Below are positions 11,797 through 62,647 of a DNA stretch of 64,000 bases, piece by piece (position 1 is the first letter of the stretch; the number at the start of each line of letters is the position of its first letter). Origin of the DNA: Rhizophlyctis rosea. Lineage: Eukaryota; Chytridiomycota; Chytridiomycetes; Rhizophlyctidales; Rhizophlyctidaceae. The stretch lies in the NCBI GenBank assembly GCA_027596075.1, contig JADGJC010000085.1, positions 1 through 64,000 on the forward strand, given 5' to 3'. The notes below the pieces were generated by a model. It searched no databases and was not told the DNA's origin. It saw only the letters and a list, made by a program, of their open reading frames with translations. The position numbers and the translations under genes were made by a program.

Positions 11797-12477
11797 TCAA
11801 ACCCGTACAGGCACAGCAACCGAAAGCGGCACCGTTCCCCTGAAAGGTCTTGTCGCCCGGCTCTTAACATGATCCAAAGAGTCCTTCCTTGCTATTCTCG
11901 GTGGAGGCATAGACACGGGCGGGTGGGACGCAACGGGGATGACAATTGGGGGCGGTGGTGGTGCGCGGCGGGTGGATTTGCGGGATTTCATGTGTTGGGA
12001 GGTGCAAATTGCGGTAAGGGTAGGTTTAGAGGATGAAGGGCAGGGAGCTGGGGACGCAATAGGCTTTGAGATGACGATCGGGGATGGAGGTGGGGGAAGA
12101 GCGGATTTAGGAGGTGGGCCGGGCAATGCGGGTATAGTGAATGTGCGTGGAGAGGAGTCGCTGGAAGCGGGGCTGGAGGAGGAGGTCGAGGATGGGTATG
12201 GAGCATGGGTAAGCGGTGGAGGAAGCGGTGATGTAGAGACTTGGTTTGCGCTCAGCAATCGTTCGCACTTCTCCAACAACGCAGCAGTGGCCGAATCTAG
12301 CGGCACTTGTGGCCCAAAGGTTGCAGAAATGTTGCCTAATCTGGGTTCAGGCAATGCCATGTCCATTCCAGCGTTTCCTCGGTACGTCAACGTCCAGCCA
12401 TCGGCAGGCCATAGAGGCATCTCTGAGGGGACGGGGCCCTTCAGGATGGGGAAAACGGTTTCGAATACGTGTGGCAT
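11797..12477 (-). CDS. Pro/Ser-rich hypothetical protein
   Basis: This single open frame encodes 226 aa from an ATG at 12477. The first 75 residues look folded (FETVFPILKGPVP, GWTLTYRGNAGMDMALPEP, SATAALLEKCERLLSAN), followed by a long Pro/Ser/Ala-rich disordered region with a basic patch (KSRKSTRRA) and a C-terminus rich in Pro, Val and Arg. No known domain is recognised. The coding strand is C-rich throughout, like exon 5' parts elsewhere, which supports coding, but a low-complexity chance frame cannot be excluded. Confidence 0.5.
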   Translation of the reverse strand: MPHVFETVFPILKGPVPSEMPLWPADGWTLTYRGNAGMDMALPEPRLGNISATFGPQVPLDSATAALLEKCERLLSANQVSTSPLPPPLTHAPYPSSTSSSSPASSDSSPRTFTIPALPGPPPKSALPPPPSPIVISKPIASPAPCPSSSKPTLTAICTSQHMKSRKSTRRAPPPPPIVIPVASHPPVSMPPPRIARKDSLDHVKSRATRPFRGTVPLSVAVPVRV

Positions 12478-16635: not shown

Positions 16636-18267
16636 ATGACATTCAAGTCTTCTGCCCTTTTGGGCTTTCTAACAGCCTTTTCGGCCGTCTTTGCACTGCC
16701 AAACGGAGCACCGTAAGTGTTTACCATCCAATATATGAAATCTCCGCTTTCAAAACACAACCTCTAACATTATCCCTCCAGTCGTTGCAGCATCAGCGAA
16801 CAAGCCATCCAAGGCGGACACGGCACAGCATCAGATCCAACCGCCGGCTATTCCCTCACCGTAACACCCTCAACCAAAACCCAAAATGCCTACGACATCA
16901 AAGTCGCCAACTCAGCGGGCAAGACCTCCTTCAACGGCATCCTAATCTACGTCCAAGCCGGCAACGACACCAACACCCATCTCGGCAAATGGATTAACCT
17001 CGATACCACCAACTATCATTTCCAAAGTAGCGTTTGTACTTCGCTGAACGTTGCGGGAGATGCGTCGTCGACTTTTACGCATTCGAATGCGAATGACAAG
17101 GGATTGGATACGACTTTTACGTGGCAGCCTCTTGAGAGTGATTCGGCTGCTGGGCCGCTGATGGTTCATGCTGTTATTGCTACATCGCCTAGTCCTTGGC
17201 AAGTGGTTACTCCTGTGGAGATTCCGGCTGGCGGGACTACCACGGGGACGGGCACGGGCACAAGTGCTGCACCTACTGCGGCTGGTACCCAGACCAGCAA
17301 CACCTCACCCGCCTCGCCAACCGACGTCACCACCACATCGCCCACCAATGCCGCTGCTCCTTCAGCTCCTCCCGCACCTTCAGATTCAGGTACCCCTTCA
17401 ACTCCCACTGCTCCATCAGCCCCCGCTGCTCCTTCAGTCCCCGCCGCATCCCCAGCCGCACCCACTGGCACTGTGCCCAAGTCTCCGACGCGCACCCGAA
17501 CCAACCCGTCCTCCACTGGCACTTCCGGTCGTAGGGGAAGGAACAGAAACAGGAAGAACCGAAACAGGACTGGGAACAGGAATGGAAACGCAACGTCTGC
17601 AACCGGCGCTGCGCCGACAACGACTACTGCTGATGGGACTACCACTGGCGGGACTACGACTGATGGGACCACAGCGGAAGTGCCACCTACCGACGGAACC
17701 ACCACAGCGGGGACCGACGGATCTACCACAAACGGGTCGACCGCAGCTGGAACAGATAATTCAACTGCCGAAACGTCCACGGGAACCACGTCTGACGGAA
17801 CCACTGCAGCCTACACCCCGACCGACGGCACTGCAACCACAGAGGGCACCGCAAGCACTGGTACCACCGACGGCACAACAACGGATGGAACAACCAACGC
17901 CGGCACAACTACTGGCGGGACCACCACAACCGAAGGAACTACCAACGCCGGTACATCCACAGACGGGACCACCACCACAAAACTCACAAATGGAACCACC
18001 AACGCCGGCACCCCAAACACACCTGCAACAGGCGGAACTACTCCAACGGTACCCACCACAAACACGTCCGCCACCAACGGAGTTACCAATAACGGAACTC
18101 GCAACCGCGGTACCCGCAACCGTCAAGGTGACCGCACCGGACGCAATCGGACTGCAGGCAATGCTGCTGCCGGACAAGGTACGACTGCAGTTGCTGCCAG
18201 TGCGGGGCAACGTACTGCGGGACAACGTATCAATGCTGCCGCTAGGGTTAGGAACCGGAGAGCTTAG
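16636..18267 (+). CDS. Secreted Re(e)ler-domain protein with Thr/Gly-rich mucin-like repeats
   Basis: Two exons, join(16636..16712,16782..18267), give 520 aa. A signal peptide (MTFKSSALLGFLTAFSAVFA) precedes a Reeler-like domain (about residues 25-185): RCSISEQAIQGGHGTASDPT, SAGKTSFNGILIYVQAG, a central Cys, THSNANDKGLDTTFTWQP and GPLMVHAVIATSP. The rest is low complexity: a Pro/Ala/Ser stretch, a basic RGRNRNRKNRNR block, many Thr-Asp-Gly-Thr-Thr type repeats and a second Arg/Asn-rich tail ending RVRNRRA. Reeler domains are found in secreted and cell-surface proteins; the Thr-rich part is probably O-glycosylated. No GPI signal is seen. The role is inferred to be a cell-wall or adhesive surface protein. 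The long minus-strand frames across the repeats are shadows. Confidence 0.8.
17620..18105 (+). repeat. Imperfect Thr-Asp-Gly-Thr-Thr coding repeats
   Basis: Roughly 12-18 nt units encode (T)DGTT, NAGTT and EGTT variants in irregular order inside the Reeler gene. The variation between units is mostly synonymous or D/N/E exchange, so the array is old rather than a fresh expansion. Confidence 0.7.
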
Positions 18268-25323: not shown

Positions 25324-27312
25324 TCACGCAGACCCATCCCACCCCACCAAGCTACTCCAAAGCGCAGGATCCCCAGCCCCACTCGAAGATCCCTGCCCAG
25401 CTCCATTCTCCTCCGACCGGACCAAGCTAGCAATACTCATGCAATTCCCATCATTGCTTGCAGTATCATATAGCGTGAAAGGTTCGGGATCAGCCTGGAG
25501 GCCGGACCGCAGAGGGGGTAATCGCCACCATGAAGCATGGTTGTACGGGAACGGGTTCAGATCCTCGAATAAGCTTGGAGCGCCATCAAGGAAGCTTGTA
25601 TGAGTCATAGGGAAAGGTAGGTGCGCCCGTGATGTATCGTCCATTCCATCGAGTGGTGATACCGCGTATAAACACCTCTCAATGGCCAGCACGGCGGATT
25701 TCCTGAAATCTTTTGAGACACTCATCAACTTCACTTCCACAAAACAATCATCATTTTGCACTGCAAAGAACTTACCCCAATGACTCTCCAAATCCCTCAA
25801 ACACTCCACAAAAGCCTCCCTCCACTCCCTCTTCTCCCCCTCCTCCATCCCATCAACCCTCCCCAAAACATGCTCCACAAACATCTCAACAGGACCTTCA
25901 CACCCAAAAGACCCCGCCCGTCTCGTAATCCAATGAACATGCCTCGCACCCAACCGCACACCCTTCTTTACACACTCCTTGAAAATCCCATCCGTATGCC
26001 CGTCCCACCGCCAATTTTGATCAACCGCCCAGACTGTGCCCAGAAATCTGGTGCCCACGTCGTGGATGACGAAGATGGCGTCGAAGCAGTGTTGTATTGC
26101 ACCGGAGGTGGGACTGAAGTGGGTTAACATCCAAGTCCAGCGGGTTTTGTCCATGTTGCGGAGGAAGTCTGGTGGGCCGACTCTATACTCCTTATCTAAT
26201 GCCTGACGAAACGCGCTGTCAATGTCGTCCTGCGTGACGTCTGGGACTTCTTTCTGGAGGGTGGTGAAGAAGTCAGGCAGGAAAAAGACGTTGCGGGAGA
26301 TGTCGCGGTGGAGGTTTTGACGTACTTTTGCGGCGATTTGGGTTGGGTTTAGGTGTTGACGAAGTAAGGGAAGGAAGCGAAGCCAGTTGCCCAGTTTGCC
26401 TCTGAGGTCGTGTTCGATTTTGAGGAGGAGGGTGTCAATCAGGGTAGGTGTGACTTCTAAAGCTCGATCCTTAAAAAGGTACTGGAGCTCAGGTAGGGGA
26501 CGACTTTCGATAAGGGGGAGGAGGGTGTCATCATTGAGTCTGCGGGTACATTCTCGGCAATCGTACCCGACCGCAGATTGGAGCATCAAAAAGAGGGCAT
26601 ATATCTTCGGGTTTGGCGAGACGATAAGGTGACGGATGCCGAACCTATGGTCTTCGTCTCGCAAGGTAGGGTAGTAGTTGTAGGTACGCACAAGTTGAGT
26701 GATTGTTCTCGCTGACTCATCAGAATATATCACCTCACGACGCCCAGATAGACGCAAAAGGGCCCGTTCAAAGTCCCTGTTATCGTTCTTGTGTAGCTCT
26801 AGATTGCCGCCATACTTTAATACGCCGGCATTCAACAAGGCTGCCACCACCTCTGGATGCAATTTTGGGGACGTGCTGGCTGTTCGCACGACGCGTTGGA
26901 CTAGGGCACGGGGTAGGACGGCGCCTTTCTGGAGAAGGAATGTGATGACTTTTACTGGCTGGAGAAGTCTGGGAAAGCTGTCTGTGGCATACAGGAGGGA
27001 AGGACGTGTGCCGAACCGGTATCGAAGAAACCGGGAGCGGGTGTGGGGGTCTTTGCCCAGGTTCCGGAAATGGTGGTTGGTGCGTACAAGGTTTTGGGGA
27101 TAGGAGAGAAACGCGACGATTTCACTCCATATTTCGTCACCTAGTGCCTTTGTCCTGTCGTTCATGTTATCGTTGCCGTTGTTAGCGGTCAATGCAACCA
27201 TGTAACGTGTTTGTATTGAAGATGGAGATTGTGCAGCGTGGGCAAGGGCTGGGCTGGTGAAAAGATCGACCTGATTGACACGCTCTCCAGAATCCAGACC
27301 TCGGATACACAT
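25324..27312 (-). CDS. F-box-like/degenerate-ankyrin protein
   Basis: This single-exon gene encodes 662 aa from ATG 27312; ATGs at 27201 and 27165 are also possible starts, and the last one begins just before the conserved part. An F-box-like motif, LGDEIWSEIVAFLSYPQNLV, is followed by RTNHHFRNLGKDPHTRSRFL. The middle is helical with weak ankyrin-like spacing (VKVITFLLQKGAVLPRALV, HPEVVAALLNAGVLKYGGN). The last 80 residues are Pro/Ser/Gly-rich. F-box proteins bring substrates to SCF ubiquitin ligases; that role is inferred, since the motif is divergent. Large families of this form are common in chytrids. Confidence 0.72.
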   Translation of the reverse strand: MCIRGLDSGERVNQVDLFTSPALAHAAQSPSSIQTRYMVALTANNGNDNMNDRTKALGDEIWSEIVAFLSYPQNLVRTNHHFRNLGKDPHTRSRFLRYRFGTRPSLLYATDSFPRLLQPVKVITFLLQKGAVLPRALVQRVVRTASTSPKLHPEVVAALLNAGVLKYGGNLELHKNDNRDFERALLRLSGRREVIYSDESARTITQLVRTYNYYPTLRDEDHRFGIRHLIVSPNPKIYALFLMLQSAVGYDCRECTRRLNDDTLLPLIESRPLPELQYLFKDRALEVTPTLIDTLLLKIEHDLRGKLGNWLRFLPLLRQHLNPTQIAAKVRQNLHRDISRNVFFLPDFFTTLQKEVPDVTQDDIDSAFRQALDKEYRVGPPDFLRNMDKTRWTWMLTHFSPTSGAIQHCFDAIFVIHDVGTRFLGTVWAVDQNWRWDGHTDGIFKECVKKGVRLGARHVHWITRRAGSFGCEGPVEMFVEHVLGRVDGMEEGEKREWREAFVECLRDLESHWGKFFAVQNDDCFVEVKLMSVSKDFRKSAVLAIERCLYAVSPLDGMDDTSRAHLPFPMTHTSFLDGAPSLFEDLNPFPYNHASWWRLPPLRSGLQADPEPFTLYDTASNDGNCMSIASLVRSEENGAGQGSSSGAGDPALWSSLVGWDGSA

Positions 27313-27612: not shown

Positions 27613-28557
27613 CTACTCCGCCTTAGCAACAGCATTATCCTTCACACTCTCCCCAGCACCACCCTCCTTTACAGGCGCCGCCTTCGGAATAACAAACAAC
27701 GCCTTCCCTTCCGCAAACAACGCAGCGCCCTTCCCCAGTAACACTTCCCCAATACTCCTTTCCCCCTCCTCACCCTCCTCACCCACCCCCACCACCCCCT
27801 CCGCATCCCTCGCCTCAGCCCTCAAATAAACCTTCCTCCCCTCCTCCTCAACAACCCACGCAACAAATGCCACGACCCGTCCCGCCTTCATCACATGCCT
27901 ATAGTCGACATTAAGATTAGCAGTGAACCCTCCTCGTTTCTGACTTTCCGGCACGAAACTAAAGAACGCCGACCCCATCAGATCATCAAACATAGTCGCA
28001 ATCAACCCGCCGTGGACTAAGCCTCTATGCCCGCAGATCAGGTCGCCGAGCTTCGCGATGAAGATGACGGCTTTATGTTGTTGGGATGCGAAGACAAGGG
28101 CGTGTTCCAGGCCTCCCGGGCGGTTGAGGAGGGCGCCGCGGAGGAGGTGGGGGGACCAGTCTGAGGGGGTCCGGATGAGGCCGGGGACGGGGGCGATGTG
28201 GAAGGGGAGTTCGGTTGTTGTAGGGAGGGAGCGGAGGTGTTGTGTTAGGGGGAGGGAGGTGAGGTGGGTTAGGAGGTCTGTTGGTGGGGTGTAGGATTGC
28301 CAGGATTCTATTGAGGTTGGGTGGGGTGGGAGTTGGACTGAGGTTGGATCGGGTTTTGGAGGTGTTTGGGATGAGGAGGACGTGGAAAGCATGTTGAGGA
28401 GTGACGGTGGTAGGTAACTTGTGAATTGTAGTAGTTGTTGACTAAGTCTTGTTCGAATGAATCTCGGGATGAGGAATAAGATCGTCACAAAGACGAAAGA
28501 GGAGATGGAGGGAGTCGACGAGTTGGGCGCTGAACGTATAACTTCTGTTGCAGGCAT
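27613..28557 (-). CDS. Hotdog-fold thioesterase superfamily protein
   Basis: A single exon encodes 314 aa from ATG 28557. An N-terminal hydrophobic segment (SSFVFVTILFLIPRFI, about residues 20-35) suggests a membrane anchor or organelle targeting. The hotdog domain in the C-terminal half has the family signature GHRGLVHGGLIATMFDDLMG, with the helix that carries the active-site acid, then GGFTANLNVDYRHVMKAGRV. Such enzymes hydrolyse acyl-CoA thioesters, as THEM4/PaaI-like proteins do. The C-terminal end is Glu/Gly/Lys-rich. A TATATATA motif (28579-28586) lies only about 22 nt before this ATG, so the leader would be very short, or a later Met is used. Confidence 0.8.
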   Translation of the reverse strand: MPATEVIRSAPNSSTPSISSFVFVTILFLIPRFIRTRLSQQLLQFTSYLPPSLLNMLSTSSSSQTPPKPDPTSVQLPPHPTSIESWQSYTPPTDLLTHLTSLPLTQHLRSLPTTTELPFHIAPVPGLIRTPSDWSPHLLRGALLNRPGGLEHALVFASQQHKAVIFIAKLGDLICGHRGLVHGGLIATMFDDLMGSAFFSFVPESQKRGGFTANLNVDYRHVMKAGRVVAFVAWVVEEEGRKVYLRAEARDAEGVVGVGEEGEEGERSIGEVLLGKGAALFAEGKALFVIPKAAPVKEGGAGESVKDNAVAKAE

Positions 28558-31511: not shown

Positions 31512-33834
31512 ATGACACCACCACCCCGCCAACCCAACAAGAACTACGCCGAAGACTACTTCGAAAAGCACATTCGTCTAGACCACCACCATCTTGCAGC
31601 TCACAGTCAGAAACATCACTCGTTGGTGTCGACGGAGACGATGCGTCAGGAGCCAAGGACGGAAGTGGAGAAGGGAGGGTGGGGTGGTAGGTCTGTGGTA
31701 TGTTGAAAGAATGATGGGTGCAAGAGGAGAATGCAAATGCCAGAAGGAGGCAATATATTTGATACTTATATTGGGCAATGTTGCCATAGGATTCGAGCAA
31801 CGACTCCTCCACCGCAACCAATCCCACCAACGAGTCGACACACCACCACCAAGCGCTATCAACCTACAGCAATACTCAATCTCCGCCTCACTCCTGCTCG
31901 GATGACACCCGTACGTCGCTTGCAGCAGAAGATCAACACCCCACCACAGACCACTCAACAACAGAAGAGACAGACGAAGGATGGACGTCATGGCTCTCTC
32001 TCTCGCAGCCGGAAGCTGATGTGTCGCCAGACGCGTACGACAGTCCTGGAGCGGTGACGGATACTGTGGAACGTCATGTGGGGAATCAAACTCCTCCAAA
32101 CCCAAAGACACAAACTCCCGCCACCGCAAAAATCATATTCGAAAATCCCACCCCGAAGACTGTCGGTACTCACAACCCCCCAACGTCTTCCTCTTCTTCG
32201 CCGAAAGTACCGACTAAGGCGACACCACCCAAATCCGACATATCGTGGGAGGAAGCGTACGAGCGCGCCCAAGCAATACAAGCCAGGAGAATTGCGGAAC
32301 GGAATGCTGCTGATGCTGCTGTTGCTGCTGCGATTGCAACCGCAACACCCATATCAACATCAGACATTCCCTCACCAGCCGCCTCGCCACCCCCTCCCTT
32401 ACATCAAACCCACCATCACAACCAAACCCCAAAACGCCCAACAACAAACCCATCTTTCCCACCCGCAAAACGCCAGAAATCCCCGCAACCTGCATCAGGG
32501 TCGCCGCCACCGCTTCCACCGCTTGTCACCATCAACACGACCTATAACACCAACCCGCAGAAAAAACGCGAAAGTCCAGCCTACTTCCCCACGAGTTTCG
32601 CGTCGTACTCGTACCCTCCCCCCTCGCCCATGCTCAATGCGGCCACAGGCGGGTTCCCGTCCGCGGGGTGGTCGATGCCCGTGGACGAAGGTGGTGGGCG
32701 GGGGGGGTGGGCGTACGGTACTGAGAGCGGCGATTGGGGTGCTCGTGTGCGGGGTAGGGAGGATGGGAGGGGACGGGGAAGTGGGAGGCAGCCTATGGGG
32801 CGGGGAGAGGAGCAGAGTCGGGTACGGGGTGGTGCGGATTGGCGGAGGGGTGGTGAAGAGGGGGGCGGGTGGGGTGATAGGAAGGTAAGTGGGGAGTGGG
32901 CGGGCAACGGTAGAGATGTCGGTGGTGGGAATGGGTGGAATGGTCGTCAGGGAGGTGAAGGGTGGGGTGGAGGTGAGCGTCACGAGCGTGGAGGGTGGGG
33001 CAACTCGAATGCGGGCAATTCGCGCGATGGTAACGGAAATGGGTGGGCTGGTTCGCATCAACGCGATGGGTGGGGAGCGGGTAAGAGGGGTGAGGGCGAT
33101 ACGTGGGGGCTTGGATGGGGCCGTGAAGGGGATTTGAGGTTGAGAGGGAAGGAAAGGGGGATGGGAAGTGGGGTTGATGCTCAGCAATTTGGAGGAGGAT
33201 GGGATGCGAAAGGTGGTGGAGGTGAGAAGGACGTCGAGAGGGTGTATCAGTTGAAACATGAGGTGAGGAATGTGGCTCGTTCCGTCTTTTTGCACGTTGC
33301 ATGATATAGAATAGTGCGTACATTTCTCACAACAGCTCAATAATTCCCTGCTTTGCTCCCCCAACTACACGCATAATTCCAGATCAGCAAAATCGTCGTG
33401 GACCAACTGTCGGCTTGCAAGGACGCCATGCCGAAGGACAAGTTCAAAGAGACTGCTAAATCGGTGAGTTGTGCGACAAGTTGCATAGAAATAGACAATG
33501 GGGCGGGAAGGAAAAGTGAAAATCATTTAAACAGCTCCTTCCATTGCCCTTCTCTCAACTAAAACTAACACGATCGTTTCCCAATCCCCACCCATCTCCT
33601 CCCTTGACACACCACCCCGCACACACGCACAAACATAAGCTAACCGACTGCCTCCTCCAAAAAGAGCTCCGCCGGCACCCAACCGTACCATTACAGCTCA
33701 GCGCCAGCGCAGTGCAGCATGTGCAGAATCATTTGCGGGAGTATATGCAGCGGAAGGGGATGGTGGTGGAGGGGAAGGGTGTTGGGGGGTGGTTGGGGTT
33801 TTCGAATAAGAGTTTTTGCGAGTGTTGGTTTTGA
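31512..33834 (+). CDS. SRI-domain protein with Gly/Arg/Trp-rich region
   Basis: Proposed exons are join(31512..31686,31854..33262,33383..33463,33640..33834); the last three are well supported, the first is tentative (weak AAG acceptor). The C-terminus spans three exons and reads LKHE-ISKIVVDQLSACKDAMPK-DKFKETAKS-LTDCLLQKELRRHP-HVQNHLREYMQRKG, the pattern of the SRI (Set2-Rpb1 interacting) domain that binds the phosphorylated RNA polymerase II tail. No SET or WW domain is present. Before it lie an acidic S/T-rich part, a helix rich in Ala/Glu/Arg (WEEAYERAQAIQARRIAERN), a Pro-rich basic part and about 200 residues rich in Gly, Arg and Trp, like an RNA-binding RGG/GW region. The inferred role is a transcription-coupled RNA or chromatin factor in the nucleus. 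Confidence 0.72.
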
Positions 33835-34602: not shown

Positions 34603-36553
34603 ATGTCCGACAACGCAAGCACAACAACATCAACAACCACCCCACCCTCCCCAACAACCCCGCAACAACCCACAAACCAACCCCGCCCCCTCTCAACAAC
34701 CTGGCTAATCCTCGACACAATATGGAACCTAACCCGTCTCTCCCTCCTCATATCCTTCATATCCCTCTACGCTCCCTTCTCCTCCTCAACCTCCGCTGCA
34801 GATTGCGACTCTCCCATCCCCGTATTCCTCGTCGGCGCGGCGGTTTTAGTGGCCGTTTATTCCCTCCCGCAAAGTCCGTTGATACATTGGACGGATAGGA
34901 ACCCGTTGTATAAGTACCATCCGGTCGTGAAGTGGGTTAGGAAGTTTTGGAGTGTTTGTTCGCTTGTGGATTGGTGTTGGGCTGTGTCTGGGCAGGTGTG
35001 GACTTTTAGGAGTCAGACTTGGTGAGTTGTGGGAGTGGGATGTGTGTTATGGGTGGGTGGGTGATGGTTGGGGATGAGCGGGATTATTGCGCGGAGCGCA
35101 GAGTTCGCACCATTGTCAGCGAGTTGGCATGATTAGTTGCTGCGCGGAGCGCCTGTTGCCAGCGGAGCTGGCTAGTACGTGCGCGGAGCGCATAGTTGGG
35201 CGCGAAGCGCGTATGTGAGCGTCAGCAAACGGATCAAGAATGAATCAATAATCAAATGTGAATTTGGCTAACGCTTCACATTGATGTTCACTTGTCAACA
35301 GCAGAGCAACAAACCCGCACGTCTACTGGCTAGCCATTACGGAAATAATCATATTCTACATCGGCGTTGTGCTGCCCGTGGTCGTCATCATGGTCCTCTT
35401 TTGCATATACGGCACGGCCTTGTTCACTGGGAGGGGCTTGCGAGGCGCTTTGGAAGGACCAGGAGGGTTAACACCACTGGAGCTTTCAAGGCTGCCGACG
35501 TTCTCGTTCCACATGCCGGATGAGAATGAGGGCAAGCTGGCGGGCGACGAGGAGGCTGGGAGAGGCGACAGGATGGGCGGAGCTGAACATGAACCCGCTG
35601 TTGTGGAGGTTGTTGTGGAGGACGTGAAGGTGGGTTTTGGTGTCTGATTCATGGTATGCACAATGTGTGAGATATCCAGGAGGAGATTTTGGGTTTTTGG
35701 TTTTACCTTGATCGGGTGTGGAGTTGTAGGATGTGGGAAGGGTGATTGCGGTAAACATTGACATGACCTGTGACTGTGTGGATGGAAAGGGTCTTTGATC
35801 AATTTCGACTGATGCACTGCATTCATCAATCTTCACTCCAACCAGAACGACACCTCATCCCCACCTAAACCCTCCACACCCCAACCCCCAACATCCCCAA
35901 CAACACCCCAACCCACAAACTCCAGCACCCAAACCTGCTCCATCTGCTTCTGCGACTACGAGCCCGGCGACCGTCTCCGCGAACTAGCCTGCGGCCACCG
36001 CTTCCACAAAACATGTATAGACCCCTGGCTCCTCCCCGATAAAACTAAAAACGAGCGCGGACATAGGACGTGTCCGCTTTGTGTTAAGGAGGCGATACGG
36101 CCGGAGGATCGGGACCCGAAGTGGGTGAAGATGCAGAAGAGGAGGGAGGCGGAGGAGAGGAGGTTGCGACCTGATATGGAGGCTGCTATTGCTGCTAGTA
36201 GAGAGGAGGCGGAGAAGAGGGTGGGGGAGGAGAAGAAGGAGGGGAAGGAGGGAGAGGGGGAAGGGGAGGGGAAGAAGGAGGAGTTTTTGATGGTTCCAGG
36301 TCTGGAGGGGAGTGAGGATGGTGTTGGGTCTTCTAGTGGGTCGGTGAGGAGTGAGGAAGCGAGACATCCTGGACGGGAGGAGTCGTCGTCATCATCTTCG
36401 TCACATGCTGCTAATCGTACCTCTCAATCTTCCACGCCTTCCATACAATCACATCCATTATCTGATCCCTTGTCGTCGCATGCGGAATCGCCGGATGGGG
36501 CGAAGGGGGGAGATCAGGAGGGGAAGGGGAAGGGTAAACGGCCTGTATCATGA
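34603..36553 (+). CDS. Membrane RING-H2 E3 ubiquitin ligase
   Basis: Three exons, join(34603..35021,35302..35629,35846..36553), give 484 aa. Four hydrophobic segments occur: two in exon 1 ([29 protein letters not shown]), a weaker one there ([14 protein letters not shown]) and one in exon 2 ([19 protein letters not shown]). Exon 3 encodes a RING-H2 finger: [34 protein letters not shown], then CPLC, with the C-x2-C, C-x-H-x2-H and C-x2-C ligands in order. A coiled, Glu/Lys-rich region and a Ser-rich tail follow. RING-H2 proteins of this build transfer ubiquitin at internal membranes, often in quality control or trafficking. Each of the three exons shows the C-rich to G-rich run. Confidence 0.88.
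35022..35301 (+). repeat. Short GCGC-nnn-GCGC palindromes inside the RING gene intron
   Basis: The first intron holds three copies of GCGCGGAGCGC (near 35088, 35139, 35182), one GCGCGAAGCGC (near 35200) and a related GCCAGCGGAGCTGGC (near 35159). All are short hairpin-forming palindromes with a three-base loop, spaced roughly 20-50 nt. No other such cluster was noticed in the window. Confidence 0.6.
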
Positions 36554-43539: not shown

Positions 43540-45759
43540 ATGTCCACCCCAACAGACGACACCTCAAACCACAAAAACCTCAACGTAATCCTCATCTCCT
43601 CCTTCGTCGCCTTCGGAGGTTTCCTCTTCGGCTACGACACTGGCCTGATCTCCGGTATCCTGGAAATGCCGGCCTTCAAGAGAGATTTCGCGCTCACGAC
43701 GACGACGCAGAGTATGGTTGTTAGTTTGTTGAGTGTGGGGACGTTTATTGGGGCGCTTGCGAGTGGGATTTGGGCTGATCGGTTTGGGAGGAAGTGGGGG
43801 ATGGTTTATGCTTGTGTTGTTTTTGCGTGAGTAGTTGTTCTTCCTGTGTTTGATAATTTTTTTGGATTGGGAGGAGGTTGGTGGAAGGGAAGGAAGGGGC
43901 CGTGGGGGGCGATATGGGAGTAGGAGAGATGCGATGGAGGGGTTTGTTTTGCTATGTCTGATGTATACTCATATTCTTGTTTCATATCTTCCTTTTTTTG
44001 CCCTTGCATAACACAGCATTGGCGTTGCCATCCAAACCGGTACCCCAGCCCAAGTCGGTGTTCTGACATTTGGCCGTGTCGTCGCTGGTCTTGGTGTAGG
44101 TCTCCTCTCCGACATCGTACCCCTCTACCACTCCGAAGTCGCCCCCAAAGAAATTCGGTAAGTCCGGTCTCACAACAGGCTCCCCCCGTCCCTGCACTTC
44201 ACATTCGCTCCAACCTTCAAAATCAACCTTCTAACAATCCTTCAACAGCGGCTCCCTCGTCGCAACCTACCAACTCACCATCACCATCGGTCTCCTCCTT
44301 GCCTTCGTCGCCAACCAAGTCTGCCAAGGCATCGACAGCGCCGCAGCATACCGCATCCCAATCGGTCTGCAACTCCTCTGGGCCCTCATTCTCGGCGGCG
44401 GTACATCGATGTTGCCCGACTCGCCCCGTGGGTTGATGCGTATCGGCAAGCGGGAGGAAGCCATCCAGGCTTTGAGGAGGTTATACGGCCACGCCGGTGA
44501 CCACGATGAAGTCACTGAACGTCGTGTCATGTCTGAGATTGCTGAGATTCAGGTTCGTTCGGCGGGTGATCGATAGATGGAGTTTTGTAATGTTTCTTCA
44601 TCCGACGGATGATGAATGGGGGTTCTGAACTTCTCATTCTACTCCCCACGCAACCAACAGGAAGGTCTCGACCACGAACTCCTAATCAAAACCGAAAACA
44701 CCTACTCCTCCCTCTGGCGCAAACCCCTCTCCCGCCGCACATGGATCGGCGTCCTCCTCCAAATGTTCCAACAACTCACGGGCGTAAACTTCATCTTCTA
44801 CTACGGAACGAAATTCTTCTCCCAAGCCGGTTTGCAAGGTTTCCAGACGCAGACGATCACGGGTGTGGTGAATATGCTTTCGACTTTGCCGGGGATGTGG
44901 ATGGTGGATAAGTGGGGGAGGAGGAGGTTGATGTTGATTGGGTGCTGGATTATGTTTATTGGGATGGTGAGTTTTTTTTTTTTTTTTGAGGAGGGGGTGT
45001 TTTTGGCGTCTTTTGTTTGGTGTTGTGGGCTGATGATGGTTTCTGGGAAGTGGAAAGTAAACAAGATATGGAGATACGAGGGGGGCGGATACTGATTTGT
45101 GCTTTTGCTCTCTTAACGAAAAAGGTCGTTATTGGAATCATGGGTGAAGTCTCTCCAGTTCAACACGACGCTGAGGGTAACGCTATCCCACCTTCGTCTC
45201 CAACTGGAGGAATTGTCATCACCATCTTCGCTTGTGTCTTCATCACCGGTGTAAGTTGAAATCTCCCTCCCCCCCACGCCTCTCCCCCTTAAAATTTCAT
45301 GCACCATAAGAAAACTCACCCCCACCCCCACCAACCAAAAAACAGTTCGGCTGCTCCTGGGGTCCCGGCGCCTGGGTCATTCCCTCCGAAATCTTCCCCC
45401 TCCCCGTCCGCGCAAAAGGCATCTCCATGGCCACAGCCTCCAACTGGCTCTGGAACTTCATCCTCGGTTTCATCACCCCTTACCTCACCGACCCGGGCTA
45501 CGGCAACCTCGGCACGCGTATCGCTTTCGTGTGGGCTATTCTCGAACTCTGCGGTGGAGCGTACGTTTACTTCTTTGTGCTTGAGACGCGGGGATTGTTG
45601 TTGGAGGAGATTGATGAGATGTTTGAGGCGGGGACGTCGGCGAAGGCGAGTGTTGGGTGGAAGAGTGAGAGGAGGAGGGGGTTGGAGGCGGGTGTTGGGA
45701 GGGAGGAGAGTGTGCAGGATGAGGTGGAGGTTAGTAAGATTGAGAAGGCGCATGTCTAG
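43540..45759 (+). CDS. MFS sugar transporter
   Basis: Six exons, join(43540..43826,44017..44157,44249..44552,44661..44966,45125..45250,45346..45759), give 525 aa, the usual size. Signatures are clear: FGGFLFGYDTGLISGILEMP in helix 1, GIWADRFGRKWG after helix 2, GRVVAGLGVGLLSDIVPLYH-SEVAPKEIRG, PDSPRGLMRIGKREEA before the central loop, QLTGVNFIFYYG, WMVDKWGRRRLM, GPGAWVIPSEIFPLPVRAKG and LETRGLLLEEIDEMF. This is the fungal hexose/sugar-proton symporter type, placed in the plasma membrane. All introns are GT-AG. The intron at 44967-45124 has a 15-nt T run near its start. The substrate is not determined; the family covers glucose, xylose and other sugars. Confidence 0.93.
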
Positions 45760-46411: not shown

Positions 46412-47807
46412 TCAAGCCGGAATAATCTTCAACTCCTTCATCTTATCAAACGACTCCTTCCAGGTCTGCCAGGAATCAACCGTGACGTCCCACCCAGCTT
46501 CACGTGCACGCGTCATGTCACCTTCATCGGACCACGAACGACCGGTTGCGAATTCTGTGTGTATCAATACAAACAGGAGAGCAACCCATCAGCATCCGAT
46601 TCTCATTAATCATCGCATGATCATTCCATCCGCTAATAAAGCCCCTTGCCCAACTCACCGCCAAATTTCCAAGTGGCATATTCATAAGCGGAAGCATCTA
46701 AGTTGTGCTTCTTGGCAATGGAGTCCCAGAGATCCTTTTTAGCCGGCATTTCTTTTGAGAGTTGGACTTGACAAGCCATTTGGCCGGCTTTTGGGTCGGG
46801 GATGGTGAAGGCTTCTTTTTCGGAGGGGAGGGGGACACTGAAGTACCTGCCGAAGATTCGAATGAATAGATTGTTTAAAAAGGAAAGTCAACACATGTAA
46901 ACTCACTCTCCAATCTTCGGCCACAAGTCCGACCACCGAACCGTATCCCCGTTATGAATGTTGAAAACAGCACCCCCATCCTTCCCCTTGATCCTCCCCG
47001 AATTCTCCGCACACCATTCCTGGAACTTGGCATTATTCGACGCAGCACTCATATCAACCACATTATTATACATGACGCGGTTGCCCGGGAACTTGAACGG
47101 TTTGCCTTCTTCCTTACAGATGACGGCGTAGAGGGCAAGCGTGACGGCGATGTTCATGAAGTTGCCCTTGGAGACGCCGATGATGTAGTTGGGGCGGGTG
47201 ATGATGTAGGTCCAGGAGTGGGATTGGGAGAAGGTGCGGAGGGCGTCTTCTTGGGCGTAGTAGAAGTTGAGGCCTTTGTGGCGCGGGGCGTCTTCTTTGA
47301 AGGGGTATGGGGCGAGGTATTCATTGCCTTTGTGGACGCCGTAGTACTAGGTGAGGATGTGTGGAATGAGTGATAGGACGATGACTCAAGTCTTGGATGC
47401 TTCGTTAATACAAATGGTGATCATACCTTGTAACCAGTCTGCAACTGAAACACCTGCATCCCCTTCGCCACAGCCGCGATGGCCTCCATAGACTTCTGGA
47501 GCAACTCCAAATTCACATCAGTCAATTCCTTCTCATCCTGTTTTTCGATATACGTGTAATGGAACGCATGCGTAGCCGCTTCGGCACCGGCCTCCCGCAA
47601 CTTTGCCGCGATGTCGTCGACGGAGGATTTGAGGATGTCGATGGAGACGAAGGTCAGGCGGGAGTCGTCGTGTTCGAGTTGTGGGGCGCGGCGGGAGACG
47701 GCGATGCATTTGGAGAAGGTTTGTTTGGAGTGGAGGAGCTCTAGCATTGCGGTGCCGGAGATACCGTTTGCGCCGAAGACGATTGCTACGGGTGTTCTGG
47801 AGGGCAT
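46412..47807 (-). CDS. PRISE-type short-chain reductase (progesterone 5-beta-reductase/iridoid synthase-like)
   Basis: Four exons, complement(join(46412..46554,46659..46846,46907..47346,47427..47807)), give 383 aa, as long as plant and fungal PRISE enzymes. The NAD(P) motif is near the start (AIVFGANGISGTAMLELL), followed by IAVSRR, FVSIDI, the conserved FHYTYIEKQD, QTGYKYYG with the family Lys/Tyr pair region, FYYAQEDALRTFSQ, ITRPNYIIGVSKGNFMN, CKEEGKPFKFPG, FNIHNGDTVRWSDLWP and a C-terminal SWSDEGDMTRAREAGWDV. The family reduces activated C=C bonds of enones using NADPH. The biological substrate in fungi is unknown. Introns are GT-AG, 60-104 nt. The ATG at 47807 gives the motif at the expected distance. 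Confidence 0.88.
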
Positions 47808-49980: not shown

Positions 49981-51095
49981 TTAAGTACCTCTTTTAAACC
50001 CCAAACAAACAAAAAAGCCCTCAGCAGACTCCGACCGACTCGCAGCCGGTTTCTCATGCTGAACTTTCTCAAACCGTTCCAAAAGCTCGGATCGCAGTTC
50101 TGTGCACAAACTGTGAGCTATATCATTCTCCCAAGCTCCGCCGCCGCAACGATTTCCTACCTTGATCCCCATCTCCCTGCAAAAACTTACAAACCAACAC
50201 ACCCCCCTCTTTCAAAATCTGCGGTAAACTTGCTACGTCTAACGCAGTGCGACAGAGATCGTGCACGCGAGCGACGTCGGCGGTGCGGTTGCCTGTGAAG
50301 GAGTGGGCCATGTCTGAGAGGAGGACGTCGACTACGGGTGTTGGTGGTTGGGAGGAGGGTTCGCCGGAGGAAGCTTCCCCGGAGACGACGGAGACGACTT
50401 GGTTGATTATGTGGGGGTCGCGCATGTCGCCTTGAAGGATGTGGGCGCCGGGGATGGGGTCTATGGGGAGGAGGTCTATGGAGATTATGCGGCCTGGGCC
50501 TGATTGATAATGGGTGTGAGAACCATTCTTCAGGAGGATTCAGAATGAGGTGGATGATTCGTTAGTAATCGTTACCTGTTCTATTTGGACCTAGGACATG
50601 TTTAACCGCCACCTGAAAAGTTTCGAGCAGAAGCATCAGTACGGGCCTCTCAAAGCATGGCCTTCAACCGTGAAAGACTGTTACCAGCCTGTGTCCATCC
50701 GCCCGGTGCCGCACCGAGATCTACCCGTTTCAAAACATCAGCCTTTTCCATTATTCACCCACAGACCAACAATGTGCCACACAAATCATACCTAAAACAA
50801 CAACCCCCTTCCTCAAAATCTTATGCCTTTTCTGAATATGCTCTAGTTTGAATGCAGCTCTAGAGCGGTAATTCTCTACGGCTGCTTGTTTGACGAAGGG
50901 GTCGCTGCTTTGGCGGGCCCACCAGCGTTTTGGACTGCAGGCCGAATGAGTTTGACGATGAACGAACTACGGACAATTTGCAAGCGTGACTTACGAGGTG
51001 ACGGAGGTGCGGATTTGTGAGGTGGGGGGGCAGATGTGTTTAGGGAAGTGGGATGGTGATAGGTGAGGATGTGGTTTTAATAGGTTAGTTGACAT
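49981..51095 (-). CDS. FtsJ/RlmE family rRNA 2'-O-methyltransferase (mitochondrial MRM2-like)
   Basis: Six exons, complement(join(49981..50099,50161..50499,50576..50590,50685..50720,50792..50934,50995..51095)), give 250 aa with every phase consistent. The N-terminus (MSTNLLKPHPHLSPSHFPKH) is rich in Ser/His/Lys and lacks acids, fitting mitochondrial import. Then come RWWARQSSDPFVKQAAVENY-RSRAAFKL (catalytic Lys region), VVLDLGAAPGGWTQA (SAM motif I), GRIISIDLLPIDPIPGAHIL, DVLLSDMAHSFTGNRTAD (catalytic Asp), GGVLVCKFLQG (Lys) and KPAASRSESAEGFFVCLGF (Glu), completing the K-D-K-E tetrad. The family methylates a uridine of the large-subunit rRNA A-loop. The third exon from the 3' end, 50576..50590, is only 15 nt. 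Confidence 0.88.
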
Positions 51096-51427
51096 TGTTC
51101 GTTCGAGAAGATGTTTGGAGTGAGCGGTTTGCATGTTGTGCCGAGAAACGTGGGGTATGGGATGTGGGATTCACGGTTAGGCTGCGGAAGGGGTGGAAGA
51201 GGCTGCCTTACGACACGTAGGTGCGGGTTGTAGAATAGGGAAGTCGAGAAGATGAAACATGTCAAGGGAAGGAATGTCGTAAGTTGCTGACAGGTTATTT
51301 TTAGCCTACTGCGCCACACGCTAGACGGAAGTCGCGTCATGTCAGCAAGCACTTTCAGCATCTGCTTTTGTTCTCCACTCCTTCACAAAGTCTCCCGCAC
51401 ATACCTATCACCAACCTTACCACCCAT
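51096..51427. other. Divergent intergenic region
   Basis: About 330 nt between the methyltransferase start and the permease start, presumably a shared promoter region. No clear TATA box is seen. Confidence 0.4.
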
Positions 51428-53943
51428 ATGGCAGACACGTCGACCAGACAGCCCCACGAAACTACAACTCTACTACCCACGCAAGATGACACGTCCACAA
51501 GCGGCAATGTTCACCGGGAACTAGAAGCCCGTCACCTGCAGATGATAGCTATCGGCGGGACAATAGGTGCGCCTTTCGAAAAAGAGCTGGTTGACTTTTG
51601 GGTGTAGCAAACCTAACGCTATCAATCCAACCTGCACAGGCACCGGACTCTTTGTCGGTTCTGGCGCGACTATCGCAATCGCTGGACCCTTGGTATGGCC
51701 AAAAGTCCGCTGAAGTTGACCGACCTTCCCTTCTCCCAGCCGTAGGCAACGCAACGCCCGACTGACTCATTCCAACAGGGAGCACTAGTCGCATACTCAC
51801 TAGTAGGCGTAATGGTTTTCTTCGTGGTACGGACAGCTGCGTCATACTCATTCCGCTTGAAGGAGAAACCCACACTCACCAGGTTGCAGGACTGGGCGAA
51901 ATGGCGGCGTACATGCCTGTTCCGGGGAGTTTCATAACGTATGCTGGCCTTTTGGTGGATCCAGGTATGTGAGCAACGTTGTGAAACCAAAATACCTACG
52001 AAGCGCGCACTAATAACGCGTCCCCTTCCTCGTGTATAGCACTATCCTTTACCTTGGGATGGAATTGTACGTTGCATTGTTTACATCAGTTCCGTCGTTT
52101 TCCATCTCTCTAAACAACTAATCTTCCGACATTATAGATTGGGCACAATGGGCTGTCTCACTTCGTGAGTCTCCCTTTCACAGGCGCCCTAAACGGCAGA
52201 AGAATCTTATTTTTTTGATCTTCCACAGCATCAGAACTCACCGCACTGAGTATCATCATGTCTTTCTGGACCCCGCAGGTCCCATCTTGGATCTGGTCCG
52301 CCCTAGTACTGGCAATACTACTCGGACTGAACCTCATCGGCGCGAGGGGCTTCGGAGAAGTCGAATATTGGTTGGCGGGTATTAAGGTTGCTGCCATCAT
52401 AGGTATGTGATCAGCTGTGATCTCGCCATGGAGAGTGCCACGTTCCGACTGAGATTCCTCACGATGCAGTGTTTGTTTTGGTCGGCGTGGCGATCGATTT
52501 GGGTTGGATCGGGGGACTCCCGCCGTTTGGGTTTGATCTTTGGAGTATACCGGGAGCACCATTCAAGAATGGTGCGGTGGGGATTTTTGATGTGTTTGTT
52601 GTGGCGTTTTTTAGTTTTGGAGGAACTGGTAAGTCCTCTGCCTTAGAGTACATATTCGCGCGTGATGTAATGCTCATCATTGGCAATGATTGTTCACGCG
52701 CATATGCAGAGCTCGTAGGCATAACGGCAGGCGAAGTCAAAAACCCGCGCGAAAACGTGCCAAAGGCGATTAATCAAACAATTTGGCGTATCCTGTACGT
52801 GGTGTGCACAATTTTTGATGGCTGATCTCAATCCTGTGTCACAGCTTCTAATCTCACATCCACACATCCCCACTCCATCTCACCAAAAACCACAGCCTTT
52901 TCTTCATCTCCACAATCCTCATAATCGGCCTCCTAATCCGAAACGACGACCCTTCCCTCCTCAACTCCGCCGCCACCGACGACATCACCATAGCGCCATT
53001 CACCCTCGTCTTCAAGCGTGCCGGCCTCCGCTCCGCAGCACATCTAATGAACGGCGTGATTTTGTCTGCTGTGTTAAGTGCGGGGAATTCGGCTATGTAC
53101 GCGGCGTCGAGGACGTTGATGGCATTGGGGAAGGAGGGGAGGGCGCCGGCTTGGTTGGGGAGGGTAGATGGGAGGGGGGTGCCGATTGCGAGTTTGGGTG
53201 TCACGGCTGGGGTGGGGTGTTTGGCGTTTTTGGGGAGTTTGTTTGGAGGTGGGTCTTTTTGCTTTTGTATTTGCCATGTCGTGCGAAGGATTGGGCATTG
53301 GATCTGAATTGGGCCGTGTCTGACTTACAAGCATTTATCAGATGGCGTCGTCTTCACCTGGCTTCTTCGGCTCACCGGCATCTCAGGTAAAGCCGCGCTG
53401 CTCTTCGCCGCTACCGTGGCGACAGGACATTCTGACGCATAAACCCCAGGCATACTAACATGGATATCAATCGTCTTCATCCACACGCGATTCCGAGCCG
53501 CGTACCGTGCGCAAGGACAACACCTTGCGGACCTTCCGTATCGAGCTCCTTTCTATCCTTTTGGAGCCTTTGTGGCTATTTTGTTGGCTTTGGCGGTGTT
53601 TTTCGGACAGGTGTGTTTGGCTGGTCCTTCATCACATTCATCTCGTCCAACGTCGTTCGCATGAGTCCTGATGTAACTTCGCTGTTAGGGGTATGCGGCA
53701 ATGGTGAAGGAAGGCGGGAGCTGGAAGGATGTGGTGTTGGTTTATGGTATGTTGACCTGGTAATTCTGTTTGTGGCTGATTATCACTTCGTTTTGACCAT
53801 ATGTTTGTGATGTAGCAGGACTTCCTGTCTTTATAGGACTTTTCGTAGGGTACAAGGTGCGACATCGCACGCGGATGATAGATCCTGTAGATAGTGATTT
53901 TACTAGTCTTAGTGGTGGTGGTGGTAGTGGAATAGGAAGTTGA
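51428..53943 (+). CDS. Amino-acid permease (APC superfamily, GAP1-like)
   Basis: Fourteen exons, join(51428..51566,51640..51692,51779..51826,51883..51964,52040..52066,52138..52164,52229..52402,52470..52628,52710..52794,52896..53248,53342..53386,53450..53610,53689..53746,53819..53943), give 511 aa. All junctions are GT-AG and all phases agree, with no frameshift. Signatures: HLQMIAIGGTIGTGLFVGSG at helix 1, [109 protein letters not shown] and FTWLLRLTGISGILTWISIV-FIHTRFR. The family carries amino acids with protons across the plasma membrane. Two exons of 27 nt each (52040 and 52138) are very short. The C-terminal tail is short and Ser/Gly-rich. Confidence 0.92.
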
Positions 53944-59062: not shown

Positions 59063-61923
59063 TCATGCGAAGGACTCCCCACCACCCTTTCTCCCCTGCT
59101 TCCCATGAGATCTCTTGTTGGTGTCTGCTTCCACAGGAGCCGCCTCGACATCCTCCACTTTCGTCCTCTTCATCCTTCCAAACCTGTAGCATGACAGTCA
59201 GTATAAACCCGCAAACGCAAAAAGACCCAAACAAAACAAAAACTCACTGCTCAAACAACACAACAAAAACATATACCCCAGCAACTGCCCCAATCATTCC
59301 CATAGCCTTCGCCGTACCCCTCTCACCGGCTGGATCAACACCCCCACTAACACCCCCGTAAACCATCAACCCCGCCCCACACGCACACCGAACCCCCGTC
59401 CTCCACCTCCTCCCCACCCTCTCCCCAGTGCTATCTGCACTCCCATGACACCAACTAATAAAACTCAACCACCACAACACAGCCCCAAATCCACCGATGA
59501 AGAAGTACCGCAGCCAGGGTTCTACCGGGGAAGAGGCGTCGATTTGCGGGTGGACGTAGTCTATGTGGCCTATGCGGAGGATGAGGATTGAGAGGGATCC
59601 GCCAGAGAGGACTAGGGTTGTATGGAGGGGGAGGTGGAGGAGTTGGAAGAGGAAGGCTGTTAGGGGGTTGCGGCGGAGGGCGTGTTTGAACTGTGGTTTT
59701 GAGAGGGAAATGGGGCGATTAGTTTCGAGATTGTACTTGGATGAGTTGACCAGTTCATTTTATTTCTTACCTGTTTCCCACCGTCGATTGCGTAGTATAT
59801 CCATTGAACGCAAATGGTAATGGTAAGTCCTAGGATGGTGGCAGCGTACGTAGCTTCGAACTGATCATCTTTTGATGTCCATAAAATCGATACGACCAGT
59901 TCGCCTTTAATAAAAATCGCAAAATCCATGAGTATCCCCAGCGATGGGAGACCCCCCGCAACAGTGTGACCCGCCGCGAAACAACAAGAAACTCACCCAA
60001 AACAATCATAGTCAACAGCCCAAACCTCTCCCAACAATGCTCAATATTCATCGCCAACCTATACTTCATCCGTCCCGGCGGCGCGGCGTGGGGGGGGCGC
60101 CGGCCGGGGGGCGGCGGGGGCCGCGGGCCCGGCCAGGGCCGGCGGGGGGCCCGCCGGGGGGGGGGNNNNNNNNNNCTCCCCCCTCCAACCCTAACCCCCC
60201 ACCCGAAAACATACGGCACACCCCACCCCACCAAATCCATCACAAGCCCAACCCACCAAATCCACTCCCTCCCCTCCCCCCCTCCCAAAAAACAAACCAC
60301 CACCCACGGGACACTCGCCAACACCACACCCCCCATCCTGACCGCCGCGTACGCCGAAAATGCCGGCATCGAGATGAATACTTTCGAGTAAGAGAGGATG
60401 TAGAGGAGACGGGAGAGGAGGTAGATCATGGCGAAAGGGCGGGCGGTGTTGTGGTGGGGGTCTGGGTCGAAGGCGTGGGAGCAGGTTATGCCTAGACCCG
60501 AGACGAGGAGCATTTGGAGCCAGGCGTGGAGGCGATGCCAGAAGGAGGAGGTTGTGCCGAAGGTGTTTGAGTAGCTGGGGGGATGTTTCGAGAAGGTTGT
60601 GTGTAAGCTGATTTTGCGAATGGGACGGGAATGAGTGAAATGGCAGGATTTGCTTACTTCTGGTTTGATATCCATGTTCTGGATGGGTAAGTCATTGCGT
60701 CAGGAGAAGGATGGTGATTTTAAGTGGACGACAAGAACTTACAGCCATATGGGAGCGAATATCAAAATGACGTGGTTCAATTCCGCTGCATCGATAACGG
60801 ACGCCTCCTTTATAGTATGAGCTGAAACCCGGGAAGATGTCAAACATTGTGATCCCAAACTGGCCTTCATGAAGCACACAGTATCAAACAACTCACAAAC
60901 TTGCTGAATCACACCGACATATACTAAATCCGAGAAAAGCTGTCAACGGTATTTCGTCATTCACACGCTCACTCGTCACACACCAAAAGACACCATTCCT
61001 CACCTCCTCCCACGCAACCTTCCTCGCCTTCCTCTCCCGATAAAACGTATCACCAATAAAGAACTGTCGTGCCGGCGATGGCTTGAGATGTTTATCCAGG
61101 AAGTTCAAATATGGATGATGTGCAGGATGGACGTGGTGGATTTCGTCGTATAGTCTGAGATCTGCTGGGTGTTTGCCGAATTCTTCGTGTGTCTGGAGGG
61201 GAGGTTGGGGGAAGGGGAGCGTGAGAGGGATGATAGGGTATAGGAGTAGGGAGAAGGAAAAGGAGACGTACGAAATGCTCATGTGGCGCGACGTCTGCTT
61301 CTTTTTCTTCGTCGATCTGTACATTTCGTTAGAGTCAACTTTCCTGACATATGAAATGGTTGAAAGATGACCATACTCACAAACAGTGTAGCACCGGAAG
61401 CACCCTGCACAGGCTCGATTTTCCCACCCTCCACCTCCTCCACCTGCGAAGTAGGCGTGACCGGTGTCTTCCTCTCCACACCATCCTCATCACCTCCCTC
61501 ATTCACATCACCCATTCCCTCCCCCTCATCCGGCAGATCCGGACCACCCTCCCCAACATCTCCTTCCTCCCCCCCACCATTCCCATCTTTCTTCCTCGAC
61601 CGTGTTGCAACGCCCTGGTTCCCTCCATGCGGAGTTGATGCCGGCTCATCCTCTGAATCGTCACTGCCGCTACTCCCATCTGACGACTCGTCTCCCCCAA
61701 ACCCCATACCAAACCCAGTGTTATATCCCGCTTTGCGTTTTCGACGTGCTTTCGCTTGGCGTGGCCCGTTGAGGTATCTCACGTTTTGCAATTGATGGAG
61801 GGACTCATATCTGGTAGGCGGTGCTGGCGTTGTCGTCTTCGATGTCGAGAACTCAGTCGCCGATCGATTGTTTGCGGTGTTGGCATTTCCTATGTTGTTT
61901 GATGGGTTTAGACTGTTGACCAT
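59063..61923 (-). CDS. LtrA-like (low temperature requirement A) multi-pass membrane protein
   Basis: Ten exons, complement(join(59063..59183,59248..59690,59771..59904,59997..60574,60658..60678,60743..60807,60901..60939,61004..61192,61272..61316,61381..61923)). Exon 4 from the 3' end is broken by ten N (60166-60175) and flanking GC-only sequence, so the protein is incomplete there. The N-terminus is a 180-residue acidic Ser/Gly/Asp-rich cytosolic domain, not usual for LtrA. Then come FGKHPADLRLYDEIHHVHPA, VAWEELFSDLVYVGVIQQ, NHVILIFAPIWLTWISN, YSNTFGTTSSFWHRLHAWLQ-MLLVSGLGI, MNIEHCWERFGLLTMIVLGE-LVVSIL and several further helices. The last exon gives a basic cytosolic tail (GRMKRTKVEDVEAAPVEADT, KRSHGKQGRKGG). 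Family function is poorly known; the name comes from a bacterial cold-growth gene. Confidence 0.82.
60084..60175. other. Assembly gap with GC-only flank
   Basis: Ten N at 60166-60175 mark a scaffold gap. The 80 nt before it consist almost wholly of G and C and break the LtrA frame; they match neither the gene nor the neighbourhood and are probably artefact. Confidence 0.85.
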
Positions 61924-62647
61924 ATTATCACTCTCCGAAATGAGGTGAAACACTGGTTCTTGGCTTGCTTTCAGGACCTTGAAATTTTGTTTCCAGGAGG
62001 TGCAAGGTTTTGAAGTTGTTCGGTCAGGAACCACTCTTCTCGTCGACCCAATTCCAGGGGAGCAATCCCTCCCATCACCACCAATCTCCACGATGCGGAT
62101 TCATCGATAACGTGTACGTCTCTGGCGCCAGCCTCGTTCGATCCGAATGGGCCGACCATGCATGTCATTACGGAATAAGATTTTTAGAATTTTGTGTGCG
62201 CTTGCTCTTCAGGGTTCAGTTTCTGTGACGTAAATTCGAAGCCACGTGGCGCAGCAGCCAACACCCGGATGATGTCAGCACATGCAAACAAGACGGGTTG
62301 AAAGTTGACAGGTAGCGACCCGTAGGGCTCCCGAAATACCAAGATTCCAGTGCTGGTACCCATGTAAGAGATTGACAAACACCATGTGATGAAGTAGGGT
62401 CGGGTTTGCACTGATTGACAATTCCAACAATCCCAACGACAATCTGTTGACTCCATACAAATCCGTTGAGGCCCTGCATCTACAATGCCGTCCATGTTTT
62501 CAAAATACCCCAGCGCCCTTACCAAAAAAACCCTCAATCTCATGATCACTCATAATCAAAGACAATATATTGGCGTAATATTCGCAACACCCGCCCTGAG
62601 CCCGGTGCAAATTTTACACATTCCCATACCTTCTCTACCATCCATCC
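61924..62647. other. Intergenic region
   Basis: Upstream region of the LtrA-like gene and leader of the next ORF. No gene is supported. Confidence 0.4.

Follow-up and report, generated by a model that had tools for sequence, protein, structure and literature searches.

Base composition of coding strands shifts along most exons, and is reset exon by exon, in genes of Rhizophlyctis rosea

Introduction

Does the base composition of a fungal coding strand follow position in the gene or position in the exon? The question is raised by a 64,000-nucleotide stretch of the Rhizophlyctis rosea genome (hereafter the window), whose first-pass annotation described most coding exons as beginning C-rich and G-poor, ending G-rich and C-poor and starting afresh after each intron, a pattern for which it knew of no standard explanation. 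A gene-level form has been published by McLean and Tirosh (2011; PMC3315797), who found genes to be C-biased at their 5' ends and G-biased at their 3' ends in most of the fungi that they studied (one figure covers 64 species). According to the available part of that article, the bias appears at four-fold sites and in flanks together with amino-acid effects (Trp towards the end), AT skew is flat, the correlation with expression is very weak in Candida albicans, and the causes proposed are mutation regimes that go with polymerase phases or an avoidance of C; this part of the article yielded no exon-level analysis. The initial statement was thus nearly right, as a gene-level form with two proposed causes was in print, and the exon-level reset described here contradicts both causes as stated. 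No paper on such a reset was found among the matches listed in the open PMC literature, where the title of McLean and Tirosh turned up, apart from the article itself, in two papers on mitochondrial genomes.

Methods

The window comprises positions 1-64,000 of contig JADGJC010000085.1, from an assembly of 44.1 Mb in 634 contigs. An extra 280 kb was taken from 20 contigs, the window's own contig among them, for a total with the window of 333,532 unmasked bases. Genes were modelled with our own two-strand ab initio gene finder, which used no transcripts and whose coding model has no term for position within the exon. It returned 83 models, of which the 58 scoring above 20 (153 exons, 95 introns) form the set for the main statistics; the other 25, scoring 20 or less, were left out of these statistics and kept for the test of score cut-offs. 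Half-exon tests cover exons of 120 nt or more. Position in the exon and position in the gene were compared in a logistic model of G versus C at 8143 third positions of 26 genes with at least three exons, with confidence intervals (CI) from a bootstrap over genes. Five histone pieces were examined, two of which yielded models (three genes) and three none.

The DNA is eukaryotic and has a fungal look, both in its gene content and in the introns of the models, which are short with GTRAGT-like donors. Pfam matches were obtained for all nine window proteins scanned. Outside the window the longest exon was scanned for 30 of 47 models; 13 of the 30 match at E <=0.001, and 10 of these 13 exceed the curated cut-off. 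One model (L022:6427-8789) has kinase-like and clathrin-heavy-chain-like parts, both recognized by eye, and is probably two fused genes.

Results

Composition along exons of the window

The typical exon, in intron-bearing and intronless genes alike, runs from a C/A-rich start to a G/T-rich end. Among window exons that reach 150 nt, GC skew rises from the first to the last third in 37 of 40, and the pattern is strong and extends beyond the window (58 gene models from 333 kb, the window included). The three exons that do not rise are 5407-5868 and 11797-12477, from weak models with scores of 10 and 3, and the long exon listed last in Table 1. A recount returned exactly the numbers first given for RING exon 1 (31 C and 1 G at 34621-34680, 5 C and 25 G at 34921-34980) and, on the coding strand, for an LtrA exon (25 C and 4 G in its first 50 nt, 9 C and 26 G at 59281-59340). 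The gene models reproduced the exons named in the first-pass annotation, and rising exons (first versus last third) were found in the RING, sugar-transporter, permease, PRISE, BTG, GNAT and SRI genes, for which it had claimed the pattern.

Table 1. Features of the window with coding-strand C and G counts in the first and last thirds of exons
Feature	Positions	Strand	First third	Last third	Remarks
BTG gene, one exon	3316-3987	+	C95/G27	C70/G68	Pfam match
GNAT gene, one exon	10692-11342	+	C98/G25	C26/G73	Pfam match
4HBT thioesterase exon	27614-28557	-	C131/G28	C31/G146	Pfam match
Putative SRI gene (first-pass label)	31512-33834	+			3 of 3 exons rising
RING exon 1	34603-35021	+	C64/G12	C18/G50	Pfam-matched gene
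RING intron 1	35022-35301	+			Site of skew reset
RING exon 2	35302-35629	+	C31/G22	C16/G51	
RING exon 3	35846-36553	+	C102/G35	C53/G76	Second C-rich stretch at about 36400-36460
Sugar transporter	43540-45759	+			4 of 4 exons >=150 nt rising; Pfam match
Putative PRISE gene (first-pass label)	46412-47807	-			3 of 3 exons >=150 nt rising
Amino-acid permease exon	52896-53248	+	C52/G12	C11/G63	Pfam match
LtrA exon	59248-59690	-	C71/G15	C14/G68	Pfam match
Further LtrA exons (60222-60574, 60984-61300, 61381-61923)	60222-61923	-			All rising
Long exon, counter-example	16797-18267	+			Several waves, net rise absent

Several other features of the window were observed. Short palindromes rich in G+C, of the gcgcggagcgc kind, recur at 35080-35210 in RING intron 1, as judged by eye. 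A strong C-to-G wave at 62521-63240, where no gene was called and a 235-aa open frame lies at 62600-63307 (+), is perhaps a missed gene or a relic. The wave at 50641-51241 runs past a minus-strand FtsJ-like model (named by eye) at 50123-50751 and probably marks a missed exon. The sugar-transporter intron at 44967-45345 is, at 379 nt, long for this genome and may conceal a missed exon.

Size and composition of the bias

At third positions of the coding strand, GC skew is about -0.3 to -0.5 at exon starts and about +0.3 to +0.6 at exon ends, a pattern common to first, internal, last and single exons and less marked over the opening 30 nt of the CDS. Exons of 300-700 nt change sign at about their midpoint. 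Four-fold sites of exons in this size class carry C at 0.51-0.58 and G at 0.08-0.10 in the first three tenths, and C at 0.09-0.11 and G at 0.45-0.52 in the last two tenths, with A falling from about 0.26 to 0.10 and T rising from about 0.10 to 0.30. The rise in skew first reported is therefore real, but the shift is one from A+C to G+T and not from C to G alone. The accompanying view was that synonymous codon choice carries most of it; first and second codon positions and amino acids shift as well, with Pro going from 183 to 67 and Trp from 19 to 56 between the first and last quarters of 300-700-nt exons. All eight four-fold boxes respond with any next base, and codons that are not four-fold are also drawn in (Arg AGG 16 to 150, Leu TTG 45 to 165). 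A context-specific cytosine deaminase was rejected as the source, since all boxes and next bases respond.

The amplitude is positive in 57 of the 58 genes and above 0.5 in 46, of the 18 sequence blocks 16 have a positive value and two, L003 and L006, a slightly negative one, and the orientation of the ramp is fixed relative to the RNA in 106 of 124 exons. No motif was seen by eye at the 24 turning points listed, regular periodicity found no support (the autocorrelation has dropped to zero by about 220 nt and is no stronger than -0.06 at 300-390 nt), and the eight exons of 60-120 nt showed no clear pattern.

Exon position, gene position and edges

The bias is carried by position in the exon and not by position in the gene: the logit is 2.60 (CI 2.06-3.23) for the former and -0.13 (CI -0.45 to 0.15) for the latter. 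The reset at introns is seen directly in the spliced CDS, where third-position GC skew jumps by a mean of -0.71 at 85 junctions, as compared with +0.13 at non-junction positions (n=2198; z -15, a value that is inflated because the comparison positions overlap). The jump amounts to -0.96 at the 20 junctions of the window and -0.64 at the 65 elsewhere.

Edges of different kinds are alike. Third-position skew at 5' edges is -0.45 at the CDS start of single-exon genes, -0.49 at that of multi-exon genes and -0.55 after an intron; at 3' edges it is +0.60 and +0.50 at the CDS ends of single-exon and multi-exon genes and +0.43 at splice edges, so that the 16 single-exon models show the bias as strongly as splice edges do. 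An explanation confined to splice sites, or to gene ends, therefore falls short. AT skew moves in the same zones, from +0.20 to +0.29 at 5' edges to -0.35 to -0.39 at 3' edges. Beside splice sites in exons of at least 600 nt the zone is a plateau, some 250 nt long downstream of the 5' edge and some 200 nt long upstream of the 3' edge. Exons of ordinary genes thus bear at their two edges zones of opposite composition, each some 200-250 nt long, A/C-rich at the 5' side and G/T-rich at the 3' side, whether the edge is a splice site or a CDS end. The tails of the bias in introns are short (first eighth +0.35, last -0.30, middle about zero; 17 introns of 220-500 nt), and in gene flanks skew is back to about zero by 200 nt from the CDS. 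Strong G-to-C steps fall in introns, which make up 4.9% of bases, in 20 of 43 cases and in exons in 10.

Controls against chance and artefact

Synonymous permutation within genes reduced the half-exon difference in third-position GC skew from 0.456 to a mean of 0.099 (maximum 0.126 of 200) and, for internal exons alone, from 0.635 to 0.142 (maximum 0.206). Amino-acid content by itself does not explain the skew; only about a fifth of it can be put down to amino-acid order and codon usage by themselves, as the permutation leaves 0.099 of 0.456. Pseudo-exons placed outside gene calls (n=277) had a mean of -0.03 against +0.62 in exons of 300-700 nt (n=51), and the result was stable at score cut-offs of 0, 20, 50 and 80 (83, 58, 46 and 27 genes). 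It would be extraordinary if gene models, amino-acid content or chance had produced the pattern. The models are ab initio and certain long exons may conceal introns, but the coding model is blind to exon position, the result is stable across the cut-offs, the ramp is present in Pfam-supported genes, and both the permutation and pseudo-exon controls and the consistency across sequence blocks speak against an artefact.

RNA folding and pairing

RNA structure between exon ends, one of the candidates raised at first reading, found no support in folding energies or in the pairing of exon arms. Folding energy of 74 exons equals that of synonymous permutations, both local and whole-exon (mean z -0.05 and +0.05). 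Two arms drawn from one exon have no pairing advantage over arms drawn from different exons (excess 1.4 +- 1.8 kcal; 60 exons), and the excess over different-exon arms for pairing across introns is -0.2 +- 1.4 kcal (n=68). Set against whole-exon synonymous permutations, 60-nt windows fold less (mean z +2.5; 87% of 60 exons), because A/C is sorted from G/T, whatever the cause of the sorting. Openness is slightly raised over permuted sequence in the region of the 3' splice site and branch (0.556 versus 0.520, p 7e-5; 95 introns), and the 5' splice site is no more open than permuted sequence (0.413 versus 0.398, p 0.35).

Long exons and exceptional genes

Exons longer than 700 nt can hold several waves, and a reset is therefore possible without a called intron. 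Missed or lost introns were considered at the falling nodes of such exons and rejected, as candidates above the 10th percentile of called introns occur at 8 of 13 falling and 14 of 28 rising nodes, with no difference between the two kinds; two candidates are strong. These two, of 297 nt (second exon of the L005 model at 66) and 73 nt (window 25324-27253), meet falling nodes, and the wave may help to find missed introns.

Certain genes depart from the typical exon, and those of the histone and HSP70 types may be exempt. Three histone genes (H3, H2B and H2A by eye; the histone pieces are among L030, L032 and L037) use C-ending codons throughout and have no ramp. Their six introns also have no G-rich 5' tail (G18:C55 in 180 nt), and codon selection alone may therefore not explain the histone exemption. 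HSP70 is almost without a ramp, with C-ending codons over most of a 1.5-kb exon and some G blocks near the end. Actin shows part of the ramp: within one exon a long C-rich part is followed by some 60 codons rich in G/T and then by a return to C. Some long models, among them L012:7758-9995 (-) and the L004 model at 34, are G/T-rich over most of their length; the long open frame of L012 has no Pfam match, and the one at L004:445-2769 (-) has a weak match below the cut-off.

Discussion

The explanation that we favour, although we give it somewhat less than an even chance, is a strand-asymmetric bias of mutation or repair that is coupled to transcription and splicing and restarted at each exon. 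On this view the start of an exon, be it a transcript start or a 3' splice site, would put the polymerase and its escort into an early state, and they would have passed into a late state ahead of the exon's end at a 5' splice site or at the end of the transcript. Changes would gather on one strand in the early state and on the other in the late one; in genes such as those for histones and HSP70 the bias would be hidden by translational selection for C-ending codons. This reading is preferred because exon position rather than gene position carries the effect, because the edge classes are alike, because all four-fold boxes, Arg AGG, Leu TTG and codon positions one and two respond, as they would to a general pressure, and because the bias leaks a short way into introns and flanks with no signal of folding. 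Against it stand the roughly six-fold C:G asymmetry at four-fold sites, which is large for a mutation bias, the histone exons that have no ramp though such genes should be highly transcribed, the histone introns that have no tail, the waves of long exons that have no called intron, and the slightly more open 3' splice-site region, as selection would give. Selection on pre-mRNA composition, with A/C-richness after starts and 3' splice sites and G/U-richness before 5' splice sites and ends, follows close behind as a possible though less probable cause. It might keep signals open, bind packaging or splicing proteins or set polymerase speed within the exon, and it would agree with the weak folding of 60-nt windows, the open 3' splice-site and branch region and the fixed orientation relative to the RNA. 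That weak folding, however, follows from the sorting under any cause, the 5' splice site is not more open, CDS ends and single-exon genes are as strong as splice edges, the zones, at 200-250 nt, are longer than local accessibility would lead one to expect, AG or GT is not avoided at four-fold sites, and the ramp is absent in histones and nearly absent in HSP70.

Other explanations fare worse. The concentration of strong G-to-C steps in introns and the presence of waves in long exons would suit introns gained or kept preferentially where pre-existing waves fall from G/T to A/C, but this is improbable, as it leaves both the wave itself and its identical phase at the starts and ends of single-exon genes unexplained. 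Specific pairing, as RNA or DNA, between the start and end of an exon or between the exon ends that flank an intron is suggested by the complementary composition of the A/C-rich and G/T-rich arms; with no surplus in own-arm or across-intron pairing, nor in folding over permutations, it is very unlikely. We give slightly less credence still to breaks with resection from open chromatin at promoters, ends and introns, although the polarity fits a break that exposes 3'-ended strands to either side, since the mirrored zone is absent upstream of starts and downstream of stops and skew is about zero beyond 200 nt. Equally doubtful is the gene-level cause of McLean and Tirosh as given in the available part of their article, in which mutation regimes differ among initiation, elongation and termination or C is avoided towards gene ends. 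Gene ends here carry the published signs, but with exon position accounted for gene position adds nothing, skew jumps at junctions and AT skew flips, and the cause as stated is already contradicted; its exon-by-exon version is the explanation favoured above.

Joining these points, we tentatively propose, as one possibility among several, that a splicing-coupled, strand-switching cycle of mutation or repair writes composition exon by exon, such that introns would restore a start-like state, skew would reveal the exon map and the gene-end skew of fungi would be the single-exon case. In this genome at least, the exon takes over from the gene as the unit of a strand bias that had been published but not explained, and explanations built on gene starts and ends are therefore contradicted. 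The bias is strong enough to steer codons and amino acids in most genes examined, with consequences in such genomes for gene finding, for studies of codon usage and for selection tests. Its cause also becomes testable, as mutation and selection predict differently for intron loss, expression and polymorphism.

Comparison with known patterns

Touchon and others reportedly described, in 2004, transcription- and splicing-coupled strand asymmetries of introns. These resemble the present pattern in tying strand skew to transcription and splice sites and differ in that they reportedly concern introns, whereas the main signal here lies in exons, with only short tails in introns. Exonic splice-enhancer trends would be confined to splice edges, unlike the bias described here, which is equal at CDS ends and in the 16 single-exon models. 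Warnecke and others (2008; PMC2374712) described splice-related amino-acid and codon trends near exon ends, the two edges, in the available portion of their report, tending to resemble each other in vertebrates (rho about 0.85) and showing no correlation in Cryptococcus (0.02). Coding composition likewise varies here with distance to the exon edge, but amino-acid trends run in opposite directions at the two splice edges (rho -0.44, with a p of only 0.051). The pattern of McLean and Tirosh, which comes nearest to the present one, is, as far as the accessible part of their article describes it, shared in the C-biased CDS starts and G-biased CDS ends and in its reach to four-fold sites, amino acids and flanks. 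It differs in that it is a change along the gene with AT skew largely constant, whereas in R. rosea gene position has no effect of its own beside exon position and AT skew flips between exon edges. What sets this genome apart from the gene-level pattern is the reset exon by exon.
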